From the NCBI RefSeq assembly GCF_020567705.1, contig NZ_JAJDJU010000002.1:1-64000 (forward strand): a DNA stretch of 64,000 nucleotides, in the 5' to 3' direction. Positions 6,991 through 15,503 of the stretch are shown here, in pieces (position 1 is the first letter of the stretch; each line of letters begins with the position of its first letter). The notes beneath the pieces are model-generated. The model worked only from the letters and a program-made list of their open reading frames with translations. It did no database searches and was not told where the DNA came from. A program made the translations under genes and the position numbers. This DNA is from Acidocella sp. KAb 2-4. Its GTDB lineage: Bacteria; Pseudomonadota; Alphaproteobacteria; Acetobacterales; Acetobacteraceae.

Positions 6991-7289
6991 GAAATGCGTA
7001 AAAACGGCCGGTAAGCAAAGCGGTTGTAAAGGAAGTATGTCTGTTTAACCGAGATTGGCAGTTGACCGGCACATGCTCGCTAGAAAAATTTCATCTGCCT
7101 GGAAAATCAATTTGAGCTGCTGTTTGTCAAAGAGCCTCATCGGCACAGCCGGCCAAACAACCGAATCCATATCGCAATGAAATGGGGCGTGTGTGGATGC
7201 CCCCGTTTTGCAAGAAGATTTTTTGATCATTTTTGCGGTCGGCACTTGTATCGGTCGTGTGCCAAGTCTGTTTTGTGGCGGTGTATATG

Positions 7290-7519
7290 TCTTGGCCGGT
7301 CCTTTGGCAATGCTCACGCCAAACTCGGCGAAGTGCCCGCGCAGCGCGGCCTCGGCAGTCGCTGCCGCGTCGGCGGCAGCAGCCACACCTCAGGGCTACA
7401 GGATTGCGCCACCCGCCCCAGCCTTGTGCGCGATAATAGAACCGTCCCCACCGATCGGTAGCGCAGATCTGGAAACGTCTTTTGGCAAGGTCAATCGCCA
7501 AAACATGAACATCCGGCAT
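7290..7519 (-). mobile_element. Remnant of an IS110-family transposase
   Basis: Reading the minus strand from 7519, MPDVHVLAIDLAKRRFQICATD followed by RWGRFYYRAQ is the start of an IS110-type DEDD transposase, with the first catalytic Asp in AIDLAK. About 50 codons further, in another frame, ALRGHFAEFGVSIAKGPA matches the LRAHLAEFGxxxAKG block that lies about 110 residues into intact proteins. So the gene has lost material between the two blocks and is frameshifted; the C-terminal transposase_20 domain is not seen. No terminal repeats were recognised, as expected for IS110. A dead element, marking past insertion near the border of the catabolic cluster. Confidence 0.6.
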
Positions 7520-7619
7520 ATTCCCCTCTTCCAGGGCGCCACCATGGCGCCAGACAGACAGCATATAATGCCGCCTAGGTGGGGGCATCGACCCCATCAG
7601 TTCAGGGCGGCAGCACACT

Positions 7620-7740
7620 ATCTCCAAATTTAGCCGGATTGATGTTTATGGCCATCTTTGCCGAAATGGCCAAAAGCTTGGTCTTTACTCCCACAATGAC
7701 CTTGTTCGCTATCTGAGAGATCTGCATTTGTCTTCTCTGG
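7620..7740 (+). pseudogene. Possible scrap of a fucosyltransferase-like (GT10) gene
   Basis: One frame reads ISKFSRIDVYGHLCRNGQ and then HNDLVRYLRDLHLS without a start codon. The order 'short basic stretch, R-[IV]-D-x-Y-G-x-x-x-x-N, then a leucine-rich segment ending in (K/R)D' resembles the LSKYxxVDxxGxxxNN...LxDYKF part of family 10 glycosyltransferases. The match is short and made by eye. If right, it is debris of a polysaccharide gene like those to the left. Confidence 0.22.
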
Positions 7741-7902: not shown

Positions 7903-9720
7903 ATGACGGAACCTAGTTCGCGCCCCTCACGTGAGGAGACCTTTGCTCGGTATATGAAGGGAGCTTCGCGGGTGGCTGGCTTCACCCGCGACATGCCTTT
8001 GCTGGTACCCGACCGGTTGGAGGAGCGCGCCGCTGATAATGCCAGCACCCCCTTCATCCTGTTTGAGGAGCAGAGCATCACGTTTGCTGAGGCGAACCGC
8101 CGCGCCAACCGGGTAGCCCATGCGGCTTACGCTCTCGGCCTGAGGCGAGGTGATGTGGTGGCTCTGCTGATGAGCAACCGGCCTGAATTTGTTCTGACGT
8201 GGCTTGGTCTGGCAAAGGCGGGCATCGTCACCGCCTTGATCAACACCAGCGCGACCGGCAGCGTGTTGGGCCACGCCTTGTCGGAAGTGAAGGCGCGCGC
8301 CATGATCGTGGGCGGCGAATTGCTAGAGCTGCTCGATACGCTCGATGGTCCAGTAGGGATACCCGTCTTGGTGGACGCCGAGGCTGGACAGATTTTTTCG
8401 GTGGATTCCGAACGGAAGGACTTGGCGCCCCTTTTGGCCGCCGCATCTGACGAGAATCCCCCGAAATCATGGCGCGAGGGGTTGGTTGCCGCGGATACGC
8501 TTTATCTGATCTTCACGTCGGGAACCACCGGGCTGCCCAAAGCTGCAAAGATGAGCCATCTGCGCTTCCTTAACAGTGGCGAGATGATGGGCGGGCTGTT
8601 GTCTTTTGGCAAAGACAGTGTTTTTTACTGTGTTTTGCCATTATATCATGGTGCTGGCGGCATGGTTGTGCCCTCGGCCTGTCTGGCTTTTGGTATCCCC
8701 TTTGTGCTGCGCCGCCGGTTCAGCCGTTCAGGATTCTGGAGCGATGTGCGCCGGCACAACATCACGGCGATGTATTATATCGGTGAGATCATTCGCTATC
8801 TTCTGGCCACGGAACCGAGTGCCGGCGAGCGGGATCATAGTCTTCGCAAGATGGCGGGCGCAGGCTTGAAGTCTGACGTCTGGCGCGCCTTCACCGAACG
8901 ATTTGGTATCGAACTGGTGATTGAAGGTCTTGGCGCGACCGAGGCGAATTATGGCCTGACCAATATAGACAATGTGGTTGGCGCCGTGGGCCGCATCACT
9001 CATCCCGAATACACCAATATACGTGTGCAGCGCTGGGATTTCGAAACCGACCAGCCGATGCGCGATGCCGCGGGGCGCCCACTGCTTGCGGGTCCGGATG
9101 AGGTGGGGGAGCTGATCGCGGAAGTTTTGCCGGGCAATGGCGTGGCGGGCTTTTTTGAAGGCTATACTTCGCAAGAGGCGACCGAGGCCAAGCTGGCGCG
9201 TGACTTGTTCCATCCTGGCGATACCTGGGTGCGCTCGGGTGATCTCGTGCGGGTGGATGCCGATGGCTATGTCTGGTTCGTGGACAGGGTGGGAGACACC
9301 TTTCGCTGGAAAAGCGAGAATGTTTCCACCCAGGAAGTCGAGGCCGTTCTTGTCGCGTTTCCCGGACTGGACATGGTCAATGTCTACGGTGTGCGGGTGC
9401 CCGGAACCGAAGGCCGGGCGGGGATGGCGGCGCTTAAATTCCATGAAGGAAACGTCTTTGATCCAGCCGTATTCTACGCTTTCGCCCGTGAGCGGCTGGC
9501 GTCTTACGCGGTCCCTGTGTTCGTTCGGCTTTGCCGGGCCATGGACATGACCACCACGTACAAGCTGCGAAAACTTCCTTTTCAGCGACAGGGATACGAC
9601 CCTGCGTTGATAGGTGAGCCGGTTTTTATCGCCGATCCGCAGCTTGGAACCTATGTGCCCGTTACCCCTGAAACCCTTGAGAGGCTGGGGATTCCGCCAT
9701 TTCAGAAAGAGGACGTCTGA
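7903..9720 (+). CDS. Acyl-CoA synthetase, FATP/very-long-chain type (AMP-binding)
   Basis: About 605 residues. It should activate a carboxylic acid to its CoA thioester via an acyl-adenylate. The AMP-binding signature LIFTSGTTGLPKAAK is at about residues 200-214, GLGATEANYG is the A5-like motif, and YVWFVDRVGDTFRWKSENVSTQEVEA is the C-terminal hinge/A8 region in the form typical of fatty-acid transport proteins and FadD17/FadD19-like steroid CoA ligases. The start is ATG 7903, with AAGGAG eight bases upstream; a TTG at 7885 is less likely. It is the first gene of a six-gene run whose other members match steroid side-chain degradation, so the substrate is probably a bulky branched acid rather than a plain fatty acid (inference). 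Confidence 0.85.
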   Translation: MTEPSSRPSREETFARYMKGASRVAGFTRDMPLLVPDRLEERAADNASTPFILFEEQSITFAEANRRANRVAHAAYALGLRRGDVVALLMSNRPEFVLTWLGLAKAGIVTALINTSATGSVLGHALSEVKARAMIVGGELLELLDTLDGPVGIPVLVDAEAGQIFSVDSERKDLAPLLAAASDENPPKSWREGLVAADTLYLIFTSGTTGLPKAAKMSHLRFLNSGEMMGGLLSFGKDSVFYCVLPLYHGAGGMVVPSACLAFGIPFVLRRRFSRSGFWSDVRRHNITAMYYIGEIIRYLLATEPSAGERDHSLRKMAGAGLKSDVWRAFTERFGIELVIEGLGATEANYGLTNIDNVVGAVGRITHPEYTNIRVQRWDFETDQPMRDAAGRPLLAGPDEVGELIAEVLPGNGVAGFFEGYTSQEATEAKLARDLFHPGDTWVRSGDLVRVDADGYVWFVDRVGDTFRWKSENVSTQEVEAVLVAFPGLDMVNVYGVRVPGTEGRAGMAALKFHEGNVFDPAVFYAFARERLASYAVPVFVRLCRAMDMTTTYKLRKLPFQRQGYDPALIGEPVFIADPQLGTYVPVTPETLERLGIPPFQKEDV

Positions 9721-9723
9721 GCG

Positions 9724-10902
9724 ATGCATGTCGATTACAGCGCGGATCAGCGGCGCATACGCGCTGAATTCCGCGCCTATCTCAACGAATTGGTGACGGA
9801 TGAAGTCCGCGCTGAGACCACTGGCGCGGAAGGCGGTCCGTGCTACCGCGAGGTTATCCGGCAGATGGGCCGGGATGGCTGGCTAACGCCGGGCTGGCCC
9901 GTGGAATATGGCGGACGGGGGATGGATCCGCAGGCGCAGAAGATCCTGCTGGAGGAGTTGGTCCTGGCCGATGCGCCCTATCCCTTCGTCACGGTGAACA
10001 CTGTCGGCCCCGCCCTGATGCGGCTGGGAACGGACGAACAGAAGCGCCGTATTCTGCCGCGTATCGCCGCGGGCGATCTGATCTTCGCCATTGGGTATAC
10101 CGAACCCGGCGCGGGTACAGACCTGGCCGCGCTTAAGACGCGCGCCGTGCGCGAGGGCGATCACTATCGGGTCAACGGACAGAAGATCTTCACCAGCGGC
10201 GCGGAAGGGGCGGATTATGTGTTTCTTGCGGCACGCACCGATCCCGATGCCCCGGCGCATAAGGGGATATCCATTCTGATGCTCGATACGCGCGATCCTG
10301 GCTTCTCGGTCTCGCCGATTATCACCGTGGGCGGCATCCGCACCAATGTGACCTATTACCAAGACGTCATGGTGCCCGCCAGTATGCTCATCGGGCAGGA
10401 AAATGCCGGCTGGCGACTGATTTCGGAGCAGCTGAACCATGAACGCATCGGGCTGGCCGCGCTGATTTATGCGGCGCATGGCATGTTCGACAAAGTGGCT
10501 AGCTGGGCGCGGGAAACCGCCGTTGGCGGCACCGGCGCGCGCGTGATGGATCTGCCCTGGGTTCAGAGCACGCTTGCTGAGGCCTATGCCCTGTTGCTGG
10601 CCAGCGAAATCATGGGCAACCGCGTGGGCTGGGAAGTGGCTCAAGGCATAACCCGGCCAGATTTAGCCGGCGCGGTCAAGGTTTTCGGCACTGAGGGCAT
10701 GATCAAGATCATGCGCCTGTTGCTTGACGTGCTCGGCGCCGCCGGGCTGGTGCGCGCCGGGTCACCGGGGGCAATCCTCAAGGGCCGGATCGAACGTGAA
10801 TACCGGCTTTGCCAGATCAATACATTTGGCGGCGGGACCGCCGAGGTGCTGCGCGACATGGTGGCGCAGTTCGGCCTCGGCCTGCCTCGCGCCGCACGCT
10901 GA
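9724..10902 (+). CDS. Acyl-CoA dehydrogenase, FadE29/ChsE2-like
   Basis: 392 residues with the usual three acyl-CoA dehydrogenase parts: an N-terminal helical domain, the middle beta domain with the FAIGYTEPGAGTDLAAL flavin signature, and a C-terminal helical bundle ending LCQINTFGGGTAEVLRDMVAQFGLGLPR. It oxidises an acyl-CoA to the 2-enoyl-CoA with FAD. Starts four bases after the upstream stop. A second, diverged acyl-CoA dehydrogenase lies two genes on; in mycobacteria such pairs (FadE28/FadE29) make alpha2beta2 enzymes acting on steroid side chains, and this protein resembles the FadE29 partner. Working as a heteromer is inferred from gene context. Confidence 0.85.
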   Translation: MHVDYSADQRRIRAEFRAYLNELVTDEVRAETTGAEGGPCYREVIRQMGRDGWLTPGWPVEYGGRGMDPQAQKILLEELVLADAPYPFVTVNTVGPALMRLGTDEQKRRILPRIAAGDLIFAIGYTEPGAGTDLAALKTRAVREGDHYRVNGQKIFTSGAEGADYVFLAARTDPDAPAHKGISILMLDTRDPGFSVSPIITVGGIRTNVTYYQDVMVPASMLIGQENAGWRLISEQLNHERIGLAALIYAAHGMFDKVASWARETAVGGTGARVMDLPWVQSTLAEAYALLLASEIMGNRVGWEVAQGITRPDLAGAVKVFGTEGMIKIMRLLLDVLGAAGLVRAGSPGAILKGRIEREYRLCQINTFGGGTAEVLRDMVAQFGLGLPRAAR

Positions 10903-10917
10903 CCAAAGGAAGCCTGC

Positions 10918-11874
10918 ATGAACGAAGCATCCGATCTTTATACTCAGGCCCTCGCCTGGCTTGGCAAGGAAGCCACGCGTCCCGTCGAGGCCCGTGATCC
11001 GGTCAATGTGCCGATGATCCGCCGCTGGTGTGAGGCCATAGGCGAGGAAAACCCGATCTATGTCGATGCCGAGGCGGCAGCGGCGCAGGGTTTTCCAGCA
11101 CCTGTCTGCCCGCCTGCCATGCTGGAAGTGTGGACGATGGCGCGCTTTCGCCATACCGGGCGGGCGGTGGAGGATTCTATTCCCGTCCTCACCTTGTTCG
11201 ACGAGGCCGGCTACACTGGCGTAGTCGCCACCAATATCGAACAAGAATACGACCGCTACCTCCTCGAAGGTGACCGCGTCTCTTACACCGCCATCGTCGA
11301 TGAAGTATCGCCGGAAAAACGGACGGGCCTGGGAATCGGCCACTTCGTCACGATACGGTATGAATTTGCCGACCAGAACGGAGCTCCGGTGGGCCGGATG
11401 CTGTTCCGCGTGCTGAAGTTTAAGCCCAAACTCGCCCAACCCGCCACTGCGCCCGCGGCTCTGGACGCGCCGAAGCACCCGCGGCCGGCGATCACACATG
11501 ATAACGCCCATTACTGGGAGGGTATCTCCCGGCGTGAATTGCTGATTCAGAAATGTTCCTCGTGTGGGCATTTGCGCCATCCGCCTGGGCCGGGCTGCCC
11601 CAAATGCCGGTCTCTTGACTGGGTGGCGGTCAAGGCTTCGGGGCGGGGCACGCTTTACAGCTTTGTCACAGTGCATCAGCCGCGCATTCCCGGCCTGCAA
11701 TATCCCCTGCCAGTATTGCTGGTCGAATTGGAGGAAGGCGTGAGATTAATCGCCAACGGGCTGGATCTGCCCCCCGAGGATATCGCCATAGGCATGCCCT
11801 TGCGGCTTGACTGGGTGGAGGTCGAACCAGGCTATGTTCTGCCCGCCTTCCGGCCAGATGCCGGGGAGGGCTGA
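10918..11874 (+). CDS. ChsH2-like fusion: MaoC hot-dog domain plus DUF35 zinc-ribbon/OB-fold
   Basis: 318 residues. Residues 1-170 form a MaoC-type hot-dog domain (GYTGVVATNIEQEYDRYLLEGDRVSY). The place where active hydratases have the D-x4-H dyad reads EENPIYVD, so this half is probably not catalytic. Residues 205-310 form a DUF35 domain: a zinc ribbon with Cys213, 216, 227 and 230, then an OB-fold with GTLYSFVTVHQP. This two-part layout is that of mycobacterial ChsH2 (Rv3542c), whose MaoC half pairs with ChsH1 and whose DUF35 half binds the Ltp2 aldolase. The small MaoC protein and Ltp2-like protein encoded downstream are the matching partners. Good RBS (AAAGGAAG) 10 bases upstream. Confidence 0.82.
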   Translation: MNEASDLYTQALAWLGKEATRPVEARDPVNVPMIRRWCEAIGEENPIYVDAEAAAAQGFPAPVCPPAMLEVWTMARFRHTGRAVEDSIPVLTLFDEAGYTGVVATNIEQEYDRYLLEGDRVSYTAIVDEVSPEKRTGLGIGHFVTIRYEFADQNGAPVGRMLFRVLKFKPKLAQPATAPAALDAPKHPRPAITHDNAHYWEGISRRELLIQKCSSCGHLRHPPGPGCPKCRSLDWVAVKASGRGTLYSFVTVHQPRIPGLQYPLPVLLVELEEGVRLIANGLDLPPEDIAIGMPLRLDWVEVEPGYVLPAFRPDAGEG

Positions 11875-11877
11875 GCC

Positions 11878-13038
11878 ATGGAATTCGGACTTGATCGCGA
11901 TCAGGAGGCGTTGGTCGAACTGGCCCGCGCGATCTTCGCGGACCATAGCGGCGATGATCAGCTGCGTGCCTTCGCCGCTTCTGATAAAGCGTATGACGCC
12001 CATCTGTGGCGCCTGTTGGCTGAGGCTGGGCTTGTCGGGGTCGGCATCGAAGAGGCTCTCGGTGGAACCGGTTTTGGCATGATGGAAATCGCTTTGCTCC
12101 TGGAGCGCGCCGGCGCGGCGCTGGCCCCGGTGCCCCTGCGCGAAACGCTGATCTGCGCGCGGACGCTAGCCGTGGCGGGCGAACCCCATGCCCAGCTGGT
12201 GGCCGAAGCGGCGGCGGGCCAGGCGATCCTGAGCAGCGCCTGCGACGAGACTGGCAATGCCTGGCGGCATCCGGCCATGCTGGCGCGGCGCGACGATGAC
12301 ACCGGTGGCTGGCGGCTGGAGGGCGTGAAGGAGGCGGTCGCCTGGGGCATGGAGGCGCGCGCGATCCTGCTATCGGCACGGTTCGACGGGACCGACGGGG
12401 CGGGACTATTCCTGGTTCCGGCTGCATCCGCGGGGCTTGTCCGCGCAGCCCAGCTTGGTACAGATGCCACGCCGCTGGCCCAGCTCACGCTGGCTGATAT
12501 ACGGCTACCCGCCGATGCCCTGCTTGAGGGAGAAGACGGGCCGGGAGAGTTGCTGCGCTGGCACGTTGGCCAGATGCGCGTTGCTCTTGCCGCCAGCCAG
12601 CTCGGCATCGCAAGCGAGGCCTTGCGCCGCACCGCCGCCTATACCAGCGAACGGGTGCAGTTTGGCCGCCCGGTCGGCACGATGCAGGCTGTGCAGCAAC
12701 GGGCGGCTGATGCCTACATCGATGTGGAGGCGATGCGCTCAACCGTCTGGCGCGCGGCTTGGCTGATCGACCAGGGCGTCTGCGACGACGCGGAAATCGC
12801 CGTGGCCAAATACTGGGCGGCGATCGGCGGGCATCGCGTTACTCATACCGCCCAGCACCAGCATGGCGGCATGGGCGCCGATGTAACCTATCCCATTCAC
12901 CGGTTTTTTCTGGCCGCAAAGGCGGTGGAGATCGCGCTTGGCGGTACGCAACCAATGCTAGCCGAACTGGGCGGCGCCATTGCCACGGGAAATGCCCGTA
13001 AGCTTTCGGCTATCGGAGGAGGTCTTGATGCGCTTTGA
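11878..13038 (+). CDS. Acyl-CoA dehydrogenase, FadE28/ChsE1-like
   Basis: 386 residues. The acyl-CoA dehydrogenase fold is recognisable from the C-terminal part (TSERVQFGRPVGTMQAVQQRAADAYID, then AQHQHGGMGADVTYPIHRFFLAAK), but the middle flavin signature is weak (SSACDETGNAW instead of a YTEPxxGSD type). That asymmetry between two neighbouring dehydrogenases is typical of heteromeric alpha2beta2 enzymes in steroid catabolism, where one subunit is degenerate. The HGGxGxxxxYPxHRxF segment is characteristic of the FadE28 group. Starts four bases after the ChsH2-like stop and overlaps the next gene by 11 bp. Confidence 0.82.
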   Translation: MEFGLDRDQEALVELARAIFADHSGDDQLRAFAASDKAYDAHLWRLLAEAGLVGVGIEEALGGTGFGMMEIALLLERAGAALAPVPLRETLICARTLAVAGEPHAQLVAEAAAGQAILSSACDETGNAWRHPAMLARRDDDTGGWRLEGVKEAVAWGMEARAILLSARFDGTDGAGLFLVPAASAGLVRAAQLGTDATPLAQLTLADIRLPADALLEGEDGPGELLRWHVGQMRVALAASQLGIASEALRRTAAYTSERVQFGRPVGTMQAVQQRAADAYIDVEAMRSTVWRAAWLIDQGVCDDAEIAVAKYWAAIGGHRVTHTAQHQHGGMGADVTYPIHRFFLAAKAVEIALGGTQPMLAELGGAIATGNARKLSAIGGGLDAL

Positions 13039-13444
13039 AGACATCGTAGAGGGGGCGGAACTGCCCGAATTCGTGTTTCCCGTCACCGCTTCGGCGATTG
13101 CCGTTGGTGCAATCGCAACGAATGATTACGAGACGGTCCACCATGATAAGGCAGCGGCGGAAGCGTCCGGTGTGCCGAACATCTTTATGAATATCCTGAC
13201 CACTAATGGTCTGGTGCAGCGCTTTGTCGGTGAATGGGGTGGTCCGGGCGCCAGGATCCGAAAGATCAAGATCAAGCTGGGCGCGCCAAACTTTGTGGGC
13301 GACACCATGCGGATCAACGGCAAAGTCAGCCGTGTCAATATGGACGCGGGTGAGGTTGATGTCAGCGTATCGGGCCGCAATGCCCTCGGTGAGCATGTCG
13401 GTGCGACGGTTACTCTCTATTTTCCAGAAAGGAATGCCGCATGA
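13028..13444 (+). CDS. ChsH1-like MaoC enoyl-CoA hydratase subunit
   Basis: 138 residues, a single hot-dog domain. The hydratase-2 dyad is present as Asp33 and His38 (NDYETVHHD), so this subunit should supply the active site for adding water to the 2-enoyl-CoA. In mycobacteria ChsH1 works only as a complex with the MaoC half of ChsH2; the matching fusion protein is encoded two genes upstream. Start is the ATG at 13028 with GGAGG just upstream, inside the end of the dehydrogenase gene; a longer frame from 12980 lies in the dehydrogenase sequence and is not needed. The last codon overlaps the aldolase start (ATGA). Confidence 0.82.
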   Translation: MRFEDIVEGAELPEFVFPVTASAIAVGAIATNDYETVHHDKAAAEASGVPNIFMNILTTNGLVQRFVGEWGGPGARIRKIKIKLGAPNFVGDTMRINGKVSRVNMDAGEVDVSVSGRNALGEHVGATVTLYFPERNAA

Positions 13445-14610
13445 ACGGGCTCTCTGGCAAGGCTGCTATCGCCGGTATTGGCGCGACTGAGTTTTCCAAG
13501 AATAGCGGGCGTTCCGAACTGCGTCTTGCGGTTGAGGCGGCGCTTGCGGCATTGGAAGATGCAGGTATCGATCCAGCCGAGGTTGACGGAATGTCGACCT
13601 ATACCATGGATAACAATCCCGAAATTGAGCTCTTCCGCAATATCGGCGGGCGGGATCTAAAATTTTTCAGCCGCATTCATTATGGTGGCGGCGCCGCGTG
13701 CGCGCCGATCATGCATGCAGCCATGGCCGTCGCTACCGGCGTGGCACAAGTTGTTGTATGTTACCGGGCAATGAATGAGCGCTCGCAGTATCGTTTCGGT
13801 GCGGCGTTCACGCCCAATGCCCTGCCTACGGCTGAAATCGCCCATTACGGCAACTATGTGCCATTTGGTCTAGCCTCCCCGGCCAGTTGGATTGCCATGT
13901 CAGCCCAACGCTATATGTATGAACACGGCGCGACATCAGAGGATTTCGGCCGTATTGCCGTTAGCTTTCGTGATTTTGCGGCCACCAACCCTAAGGCGTG
14001 GTTCTATGAGCAACCGATCACGCTGGAAGATCATCAAGCGTCACGTTGGATCGTGGAGCCGCTGCATCTATTCGATTGCTGCCAAGAATCGGATGGCGCG
14101 GTGGCGGTTGTTGTCACAACTGCCGAACGTGCGCGCAAGCTTAAACAAGCGCCCGTCGTTATCCGGGCGGCGGCGCAAGGGGCGTGCGATGACCAGCAGA
14201 TGATGACAAGCTATTATCGGCCGGATCTAACGTCGCTGTCGGAAATGAATCTCGTTGCGCGTCAGCTCTATGGCATGGCCGGGATAGGGCCGGATGACGT
14301 GCAGGCAGCTATCCTGTATGACCATTTTTCGCCATTCGTTCTTCCCCAAATTGAGGCGTTTGGCTTCGCTAAGAAAGGACAGGCCAAGGATTTTGTCCGC
14401 GAAGGGAATATCGCCCGCGGCGGCCGGCTACCCGTGAATACCAATGGTGGGCAGCTTGGCGAAGCTTACATTCACGGATTGAATGGTGTGGCGGAAGGCG
14501 TAAGACTTGTGCGTGGTCAGAGCGTCAATCAGCCGGGTGAGTGTCGTAACGTGATTATCACTGCCGGCACCGGCGTGCCGACTTCGGGACTGATACTTTC
14601 GTATGACTGA
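13441..14610 (+). CDS. Ltp2-like thiolase-fold steroid aldolase (lipid-transfer protein family)
   Basis: 389 residues of the SCP-x/thiolase-like family. The normal thiolase His motif is replaced by GGQLGEAYIHGLNG, with Tyr343, and LYDHFSPF supplies Tyr293. In characterised Ltp2 aldolases two tyrosines near these positions are reported as catalytic, which fits retro-aldol cleavage of a beta-hydroxyacyl-CoA rather than CoA-dependent thiolysis. The DUF35 half of the ChsH2-like protein should dock onto it. The product released would be propionyl-CoA or acetyl-CoA plus a ketone (inference from the mycobacterial pathway). ATGA overlap with the hydratase gene. It is the last gene of the operon. Confidence 0.82.
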   Translation: MNGLSGKAAIAGIGATEFSKNSGRSELRLAVEAALAALEDAGIDPAEVDGMSTYTMDNNPEIELFRNIGGRDLKFFSRIHYGGGAACAPIMHAAMAVATGVAQVVVCYRAMNERSQYRFGAAFTPNALPTAEIAHYGNYVPFGLASPASWIAMSAQRYMYEHGATSEDFGRIAVSFRDFAATNPKAWFYEQPITLEDHQASRWIVEPLHLFDCCQESDGAVAVVVTTAERARKLKQAPVVIRAAAQGACDDQQMMTSYYRPDLTSLSEMNLVARQLYGMAGIGPDDVQAAILYDHFSPFVLPQIEAFGFAKKGQAKDFVREGNIARGGRLPVNTNGGQLGEAYIHGLNGVAEGVRLVRGQSVNQPGECRNVIITAGTGVPTSGLILSYD

Positions 14611-14636: not shown

Positions 14637-15503
14637 ATGACAGACACGGTGACGCTAGGGGCGTGCAAAACTCAAATACTCGCCAGCATGACCACGCCTT
14701 GCATGATTGCACAGACGTTGGATATGGAGGTTCGACCCGAGAACGAGCTGCTTCTTAATGAGACGATGCATACCATAGCTCTGCAAAGGCAGGTGAAGCA
14801 GAATTTCGCGGCTGGACGATTCGAGAATGATTCTGGCCCATACCGTTATGCCGATATTGGAAGGCTTATGTTCGTTCCAGCAAAGACACCATTGCGGATA
14901 AAGTTTGAGGGAGAGCAGGTCAGTATCGCGCGGTGTATGTTTCCAGTCTCAACCTTTGCCGATCTGTTCGCTCATGAGAAAGGATTGATCAAAAGCAAAA
15001 CAATGAGCATTTTAAATATTCGCAGTTCTTCAATTAGAGGTTTGGTTATCAGAATTGCAAGTGAAATTGAAAATCAACTCGATGATGCTGAAGAAATTGT
15101 CACATATTTAGGTCATATTCTAGTCATAGAGTTGAAGCGTTATTTTGACTCTCGCTACGCGGCTGATGGAGTCTCGCGAGGCGGGCTGAGCAGGGCAGCT
15201 TGGCGGAAAGCGATACAAAGGATCGAAGCGGATGCCCTGCCGCCCACCTTAGACGAATTGGCGCAATTGACAGGTTTGAGCAAGCGGCACTTAACCCGAG
15301 CGTTTCGCCAAAGTACAGGGCAAACTGTGCAAGAGAAAATCAATGAGGCGCGTTTCAATAGAGCAATCAATGAGTTGAGCAATAATTCAATTACAATCGA
15401 TCAATTGGCACTCAAATCGGGCTTCTGTTCGGCATCGACGTTTTCAAATGCTTTCAAAAAATGGACGGGAAAAACGCCGGGCCGATACCGCAATAGTCAT
15501 TAG
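14637..15503 (+). CDS. AraC family transcriptional regulator
   Basis: 288 residues. The last 100 hold the double helix-turn-helix: LDELAQLTGLSKRHLTRAFRQSTG and then ITIDQLALKSGFCSASTFSNAFKKWTGKTPGRYR, the standard AraC/XylS signature. The N-terminal two thirds has no family I recognise and should sense the inducer or mediate dimerisation. It lies 26 bases after the aldolase gene on the same strand, so it may be cotranscribed or act on the catabolic operon. Codon use in the middle part (about 14980-15130) is strikingly AT-rich compared with every neighbour, a sign of recent transfer. Confidence 0.85.
   Translation: MTDTVTLGACKTQILASMTTPCMIAQTLDMEVRPENELLLNETMHTIALQRQVKQNFAAGRFENDSGPYRYADIGRLMFVPAKTPLRIKFEGEQVSIARCMFPVSTFADLFAHEKGLIKSKTMSILNIRSSSIRGLVIRIASEIENQLDDAEEIVTYLGHILVIELKRYFDSRYAADGVSRGGLSRAAWRKAIQRIEADALPPTLDELAQLTGLSKRHLTRAFRQSTGQTVQEKINEARFNRAINELSNNSITIDQLALKSGFCSASTFSNAFKKWTGKTPGRYRNSH

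Follow-up and report, generated by a model that had tools for sequence, protein, structure and literature searches.

An igr-type operon in an Acetobacteraceae genome, probably serving the last cycle of steroid side-chain removal

Six genes on the + strand at 7903..14610 are the subject of this analysis. They belong to contig NZ_JAJDJU010000002.1 of Acidocella sp. KAb 2-4 (assembly GCF_020567705.1), of which a stretch of 64,000 nucleotides, here called the window, was analysed. An earlier note, made from the sequence of the window alone, described these genes as an igr-like operon for the aldolytic removal of a steroid-like side chain. The genes are as tightly packed as it had reported: each one starts with ATG and ends with TGA, and the successive gaps measure 3, 15, 3, -11 and -4 bases. 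Its domain calls are borne out by Pfam, which finds an AMP-binding domain, two acyl-CoA dehydrogenases, a protein with FAS1_DH_region, zf-ChsH2 and OB_ChsH2_C domains, a MaoC protein and a Thiolase_C_1 protein. The genes are, with the basis of each name in brackets:

7903..9720, + strand: acyl-CoA synthetase of the FATP/very-long-chain type, proposed steroid-22-oyl-CoA ligase (NCBIfam PRK08279)
9724..10902, + strand: ACADa, acyl-CoA dehydrogenase subunit that carries the presumed catalytic Glu (PDB 6wy8_B, NHERIGLA)
10918..11874, + strand: ChsH2, a catalytically incomplete MaoC-like domain with a C4 zinc ribbon and an OB fold (DUF35) (Pfam, PDB)
11878..13038, + strand: ACADb, acyl-CoA dehydrogenase subunit without the presumed catalytic Glu, with R-x-QFG (PDB 6wy8_A, motifs)
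13028..13444, + strand: ChsH1, small MaoC hydratase with an intact D-x4-H dyad (PDB 4wnb_B)
13441..14610, + strand: Ltp2, thiolase-fold retro-aldolase with YDHF (Y293) and Y343 (PRK07855, identity, tree)

For Ltp2, the NCBIfam model PRK07855 scores 656 bits against a cut-off of 469. The best solved relative is the Thermomonospora Ltp2 (TcLtp2; PDB chain 6ok1_A, E 2e-168), in an entry which also contains a ChsH2(DUF35) chain. Identity to TcLtp2 reaches 64.7% (251/388 aligned residues), compared with 33.2% to CtSal, of the Sal/Shy system of bile-acid degraders, and 37.1% to the thiolase 4u4e. The two tyrosines previously placed at catalytic positions are Y293, within the YDHF motif, and Y343. 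They align with Y294 and Y344 of TcLtp2, the catalytic base and acid of that enzyme (PMC12329534).

A search of a genome collection confirmed 131 relatives of the window Ltp2, and the best 80 of these 131 were used for the comparison of loci (L-numbers). A tree of 92 rows, the aldolase part of the phylogenetic check which the earlier note had called for, does not refute its proposal. The window Ltp2 and TcLtp2 share a clade of 81 rows which includes neither CtSal nor thiolases (support 81/81). Outside this clade, CtSal, thiolase 4u4e and a thiolase from contig C14 of the host itself stand on long branches, while the position of four YDHF-bearing rows (L063-L065, L082) beside it is unresolved. 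Throughout the set, YDHF is present in 85/92 rows and GEAY-x-HG in 84/92. The nearest neighbours of the window protein are L009, L011, L012 and plasmid pTHN (100/98), followed by Croceicoccus estronivorus and L013 (100/99), all within a 20-row clade (98/97) in which 11 rows carry Sphingomonadales names. TcLtp2 groups with Rhodococcus. One row comes from a metagenome-assembled genome record titled Klebsiella pneumoniae (L038); its Ltp2 is nearly identical to copies from uncultured Gammaproteobacteria assemblies and the label is probably wrong.

The ChsH2 layout proposed earlier, a fusion of MaoC and DUF35 parts, is reflected in solved structures. The MaoC half matches PDB chains 4wnb_A and 4w78_A, ChsH2 proteins which we take to come from Mycobacterium, and the DUF35 half matches 6ok1_B of T. 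curvata. The zinc ribbon at residue 213 is of the C4 type (C-x2-C-x10-C-x2-C). At the dyad position ChsH2 reads E-x4-Y, where the 4wnb ChsH2 has D-x4-Y. Within the ChsH1/ChsH2 pair, only ChsH1 carries the D-x4-H dyad, which is intact as claimed and aligned with the ChsH1 chain 4wnb_B (E 8.6e-29). The two dehydrogenases are indeed unequal, as their best PDB relatives are different chains of 6wy8, presumably a steroid dehydrogenase: ACADa finds 6wy8_B (Tcur3483) with E 2.8e-120 and ACADb finds 6wy8_A (Tcur3481) with E 6e-69. ACADa has NHERIGLA at 238 and lacks R-x-QFG; ACADb contains R-x-QFG and shows GQMR at the corresponding motif. If, as we assume, NHERIGLA provides the catalytic Glu and R-x-QFG is part of FAD binding, the two subunits would carry complementary half-sites. 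Three heteromers are predicted: the dehydrogenase pair, ChsH1 with ChsH2, and Ltp2 with DUF35.

All five core proteins have igr-type or Tcur3481/Tcur3483 chains as best solved relatives, and catalytic residues are intact; for this reason we read the unit as igr-type. In gene content, residues and Ltp2 grouping, the complement proposed earlier (equivalents of fadE28, fadE29, chsH2, chsH1 and ltp2, plus a synthetase) is right in kind. We consider it highly probable that the operon serves the last cycle of steroid side-chain degradation and that an Acetobacteraceae lineage acquired it horizontally from a sphingomonad-like source.

The predicted pathway would start with the synthetase, which may convert a steroid bearing a three-carbon (C22) side chain to its CoA thioester. 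ACADa and ACADb would then jointly introduce the 17(20) double bond and ChsH1, together with the MaoC part of ChsH2, would add water at C17. Ltp2, seated on the DUF35 part of ChsH2, is expected to perform the retro-aldol cleavage, which releases propionyl-CoA and leaves a 17-keto steroid. This steroid could enter the 9,10-seco ring pathway, the genes for which are likely located elsewhere in the genome, and the AraC protein encoded behind ltp2 may regulate the operon. Our leading guess for the natural substrate is a C22 steroid acid, supplied by the cell itself or by its neighbours. The order of reactions follows the igr pathway and that of ORF40-44 of Comamonas testosteroni TA441 (PMC12502768).

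The synthetase exceeds the cut-off of PRK08279 (680 bits, cut-off 625) and stays below those of known steroid ligase models, with 205 of 900 bits for CasI and 185 of 850 for FadD17, the latter presumably a steroid ligase. Its best PDB match is fatty acid transport protein 2, and GAAGGAG precedes its ATG. Among the 80 loci, synthetases at least 45% identical to it occur in 20: 14 of them stand in the full six-gene layout and 6 are otherwise arranged near ltp2. The ligase step is proposed because of this linkage and because the pathway requires a CoA thioester, which makes the enzyme a candidate ligase for the C22 acid of this operon. We advance a broader idea tentatively, with our confidence somewhat divided: FATP/PRK08279 synthetases may represent a previously unassigned class of steroid-22-oyl-CoA ligases which travels with igr operons through proteobacteria, the operon bringing sterol-side-chain removal via sphingomonad-type plasmids into the Acetobacteraceae. 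Nothing joining PRK08279 with a steroid side chain was found in the open-licence literature.

Gene orders were counted in the same 80 loci, taking same-strand neighbours less than 500 bases apart. The complete order, synthetase-ACADa-ChsH2-ACADb-ChsH1-Ltp2, is present in 14. The order without the synthetase was seen in 17 (16 actinobacterial loci and one from Myxococcales), and one further locus has a doubled ACADa. ChsH2-ACADb-ChsH1-Ltp2 occurs in 35, including L012 and L013 which are cut by a contig end, and the 13 others are shorter.

Genes for the steroid nucleus are absent from the window, and the earlier note had left it either that they lie elsewhere or that the operon serves another branched acid. 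The host genome (G000; 3.1 Mb in 71 contigs) resolves this towards the first option, at the level of homologues: KshA-, KstD-, HsaA-, HsaC- and HsaD-like proteins are encoded. Most of them are found on contig C56. This contig encodes a KshA_C and Rieske protein at 193.7 bits (Pfam cut-off 23.3) and a second, weaker one at 89.6 bits, three HsaA-like proteins (about 371 bits of the 450 cut-off), two HsaC-like proteins (246 and 268 of 450) and two KstD-like proteins (541 and 520 of 789). A CasG-like ligase on C56 scores 377 bits of 750, and the general long-chain model PRK06187 scores equally (376.5 of 476). An amidase and an amidohydrolase lie near these ring-gene homologues. Contig C45 adds an HsaD-like protein (137.5 bits of 400) and two extradiol dioxygenases with 262 and 264 of 366 bits for TIGR03213 versus 206 and 191 for HsaC. 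Close to the end of C45 lie two FAD_binding_2 proteins for which a KstD identity was ruled out, as the tricarballylate dehydrogenase TcuA fits better; a third one there was scanned with Pfam only.

Two gene types which are rare in the family coincide. Among 394 family genomes, Ltp2-type matches (E 1e-120) occur in 3 and KshA_C matches (E 1e-45) in 4, and the 3 all lie within the 4 (hypergeometric p 4e-7, assuming that the two draws of 394 genomes are one sample, on which their handles agree). The three include the window genome, without which p is 4e-5, and when G150 is also removed one genome is left, with p 0.008. An Ltp2 orthologue above 80% was seen only in the host and in G035 (83%) among 100 relatives searched, the host included.

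Host identity was assessed separately. Compared with plasmid records that include 16S, the 16S gene on contig C43 comes closest to those of Acetobacter aceti (93.3%) and Roseomonas marmotae (91.2%), and we therefore take the host as a member of the Acetobacteraceae. We assign the window contig to this host because its cydB/cydA-like genes match those of a congener (G007), with 91 and 90%, and CydD matches with 79-82%. A second 16S gene, betaproteobacterial and 80% identical to that of the host, lies on the 5.2-kb contig C44 (L181) and represents a small assembly contamination.

Beyond the six genes that had been described, the locus holds a seventh gene on the same strand, an insertion sequence remnant and, upstream, the tail of a truncated hydrolase gene:

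7127..7627, - strand: decayed N-terminal remnant of an IS110-family transposase (nucleotide matches to plasmid records)
7769..7888, + strand: C-terminal remnant of an alpha/beta-hydrolase, about 40 residues (tblastn with the L010 hydrolase: 51% over 45 residues, E 4e-8)
14637..15503, + strand: AraC-family regulator (Pfam HTH_18)

In the IS110 remnant, plasmid records align with a stretch of about 175-185 bases near 7429-7611 at 72-74% identity (E 8e-14 to 2e-16). An IS110 family transposase is annotated in 7/8 of the rows listed, out of 26 plasmid records; Pfam at E 0.01 gave no match on the remnant. Eighteen loci cluster with the window (L013 and L154 are one contig, and several do not extend far enough to include the hydrolase gene), and in 8 of them, all sphingomonad-type, a full-length hydrolase homologue abuts the synthetase; the L010 copy is named by Pfam. 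The araC gene starts 26 bases past ltp2, has a G+C of 0.468 and is probably part of the operon unit. Plasmid pTHN and 3/80 loci (L009, L010 and L013) have a homologue directly behind ltp2, some of the 80 loci ending close to that gene. Promoter-like sites number 6, compared with 3.4 +/- 1.9 in shuffles, and the + strand ahead of the operon has none of them; terminator-like sites number 2 against 7.6.

The G+C content of the operon is 0.608, versus 0.677 for the window outside 7-16 kb. Plasmid p3 of Novosphingobium ES2-1, typed conjugative, carries the whole six-gene unit beside a BphC-type extradiol dioxygenase and a P450. Of its operon neighbours, 4 of the 13 compared (NTF2-like, alkene reductase and two short-chain dehydrogenases/reductases) have 50-66% identical homologues on C56. 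A second plasmid typed conjugative, pTHN of Novosphingobium THN1, contains ltp2, araC and the end of chsH1 only in the 25 kb fetched. Within this segment it is ruled out as a carrier of the whole operon, and the plasmid search with the synthetase did not list it. The 947-residue gene at the break is not a transposase, as was considered, but a Strawberry-notch-type helicase. L009, a contig of a metagenome-assembled genome labelled Proteobacteria, is 99.87% identical to pTHN (L182) over 6277 bases; the operon is complete in L009 and is cut within chsH1 on pTHN. A megablast of the whole operon against plasmids returned no match. To the right, a block from 15,586 to about 22,100, with genes that we take to be cydC-cydD-cydB-cydA-like, is conserved in 5/5 congener regions fetched, and nothing is colinear left of 15,586; no clean empty insertion site was demonstrable in these five regions. 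The lower G+C, the Sphingomonadales grouping including a conjugative plasmid, the IS110 remnant and the tail of the lost hydrolase make horizontal acquisition likely. The direction would be from a sphingomonad-like source to the Acetobacteraceae lineage.

Several observations weigh against a role in the last cycle of steroid side-chain removal. The NCBIfam matches of the ring genes all fall short of the curated equivalog cut-offs. Of the four extradiol dioxygenases, three (one on C56, slightly) fit the biphenyl-diol model TIGR03213 better than HsaC. No CYP125-type P450 was found, the three P450s of the genome having no steroid P450 model among their NCBIfam rows; they are at most 36.4% identical to P450s of the compared igr loci, and an entry from whole sterols is left unexplained. 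The support for the separation of Ltp2 from Sal is moderate and the outgroup branches are long, of which the tree program warned. As to co-occurrence, the G150 copy is only 51% identical and has YDNF instead of YDHF; without G150 and the window genome the association rests on a single genome; in addition, a 46% relative in G028 (E 1e-101) just misses the threshold, and G028 has no KshA match. Lastly, a deletion phenotype, the other kind of test named in the earlier note, is published for the igr-like operon of Caenibius tardaugens: growth of the mutant on cholate and on deoxycholate was unimpaired (PMC12882949). This argues against bile salts as an essential substrate there, not against the chemistry. 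PMC4810484 reports no evidence that the 9,10-seco pathway serves cholesterol degradation in proteobacteria.

A narrower form of the proposal, which overlaps with it, is that the CasG-like ligase of C56 feeds the operon, which would carry out the second round in the removal of bile-salt (C24) side chains. This is possible but rather unlikely. The ligase (below its cut-off), the amidase and the amidohydrolase near the ring genes would suit it, and the homologous Comamonas ORF40-44 serve cholate (PMC12502768), whereas Caenibius can do without its operon on cholate and deoxycholate (PMC12882949). Moreover, no Sal/Shy pair was recognised in the genome, where the sole other zf-ChsH2 match is an HMG-CoA-synthase-like protein. 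Contig C14 was considered as a second side-chain cluster (thiolase, DUF35 and MaoC) and ruled out, as it holds an HMG-CoA-synthase-like, CitE-like and acyl-CoA dehydrogenase set.

We find it improbable that the same retro-aldol chemistry acts on a non-steroid alpha-branched acid, for example a terpenoid or another polycyclic acid. An AtuA-like gene (acyclic terpene utilisation) near the operon in five sphingomonad-type loci, with one member named by Pfam, would fit such a role, as would the Caenibius deletion without defect on two steroids, for which the authors name other steroids or fatty acids (PMC12882949). However, the host encodes KshA-, KstD-, HsaA- and HsaC-like proteins, rare Ltp2 and rare KshA coincide across the family, and the ES2-1 plasmid operon adjoins a BphC-type extradiol dioxygenase and has neighbours with homologues on the ring-gene contig. 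Ordinary fatty-acid beta-oxidation is very unlikely: the model matching the synthetase carries a long-chain name, but the six domain sets include no canonical thiolase or 3-hydroxyacyl-CoA dehydrogenase; in their place the operon has a paired dehydrogenase and a retro-aldolase that keeps its tyrosines.

Least credible is a bile-acid Sal/Shy system for five-carbon side chains. Both share a thiolase-fold aldolase with a DUF35 partner (PMC12329534, PMC11321319), but Sal/Shy uses Tyr/Cys catalysis, its Shy needs no inert partner domain and the zinc finger of CtShy is Cys3His1, without the canonical C4 form (PMC12329534). The window proteins have YDHF instead of YDCY, Tyr343 at the position of a Gln in Sal, a C4 ribbon and a separate small ChsH1. 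With the identities of Ltp2 to CtSal and TcLtp2 given above, these residues and the ribbon rule out membership.

Having preferred the last steroid side-chain cycle, we relate the operon to characterized systems. It has all five enzymes and their catalytic residues in common with the Mycobacterium/Rhodococcus igr genes (chsE1, chsE2, chsH1, chsH2, ltp2) and the Thermomonospora proteins of 6ok1 and 6wy8, and its core gene order equals that of the Rhodococcus loci L069 and L081. Relative to the Mycobacterium/Rhodococcus arrangement it adds a FATP-type synthetase in front and an AraC regulator behind. No P450 adjoins it, unlike the Mycobacterium igr operon, which presumably includes one. A close published counterpart by description is the igr-like operon EGO55_03105-03125 of Caenibius tardaugens, likewise an alphaproteobacterial igr-type unit in a steroid degrader; five locus tags are named there and the host is a sphingomonad, in contrast to the Acetobacteraceae host of the window (PMC12882949). 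A putative kstD, EGO55_03150, lies a few locus tags away (PMC12239570). In Comamonas testosteroni TA441, ORF40-44 likewise encode dehydrogenase, hydratase and aldolase for propionyl removal, as proven there with mutants; they work in cholate degradation, and the word ligase is absent from the text (PMC12502768). An alphaproteobacterial igr-like operon is thus already published (PMC12882949), and new are the host lineage and the recurrent, putative FATP-type ligase. Searches of open-licence papers yielded no account of steroid degradation by Acetobacteraceae.

The igr chemistry itself is established. If our proposal is correct, the range of complete igr-type side-chain removal comes to include the Acetobacteraceae, a family in which very few genomes have such genes, and a concrete ligase candidate is available for the activation of C22 intermediates in alphaproteobacteria. 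According to PMC12175502, how the sphingomonad Chol11 removes side chains is for the most part unknown, so that a compact module of six genes which brings its own ligase and also occurs on a conjugative plasmid would be convenient to test.

Two other gene sets of the host were noted. On C14 (L130, 2229-8568), the HMG-CoA-synthase-like protein with zf-ChsH2 is accompanied by a PRK06157 thiolase, a RipB-like hydratase, a CitE-like lyase and two acyl-CoA dehydrogenases, together an acyl-CoA pathway without an assigned role. On C16 (L173, 8795-14908), a contig of lower G+C (0.57-0.59), the genes for an acyl-CoA ligase, a P450 and an acyl-CoA dehydrogenase accompany that of a 3,5-dioxohexanoate:acetyl-CoA transferase-type protein above its cut-off.

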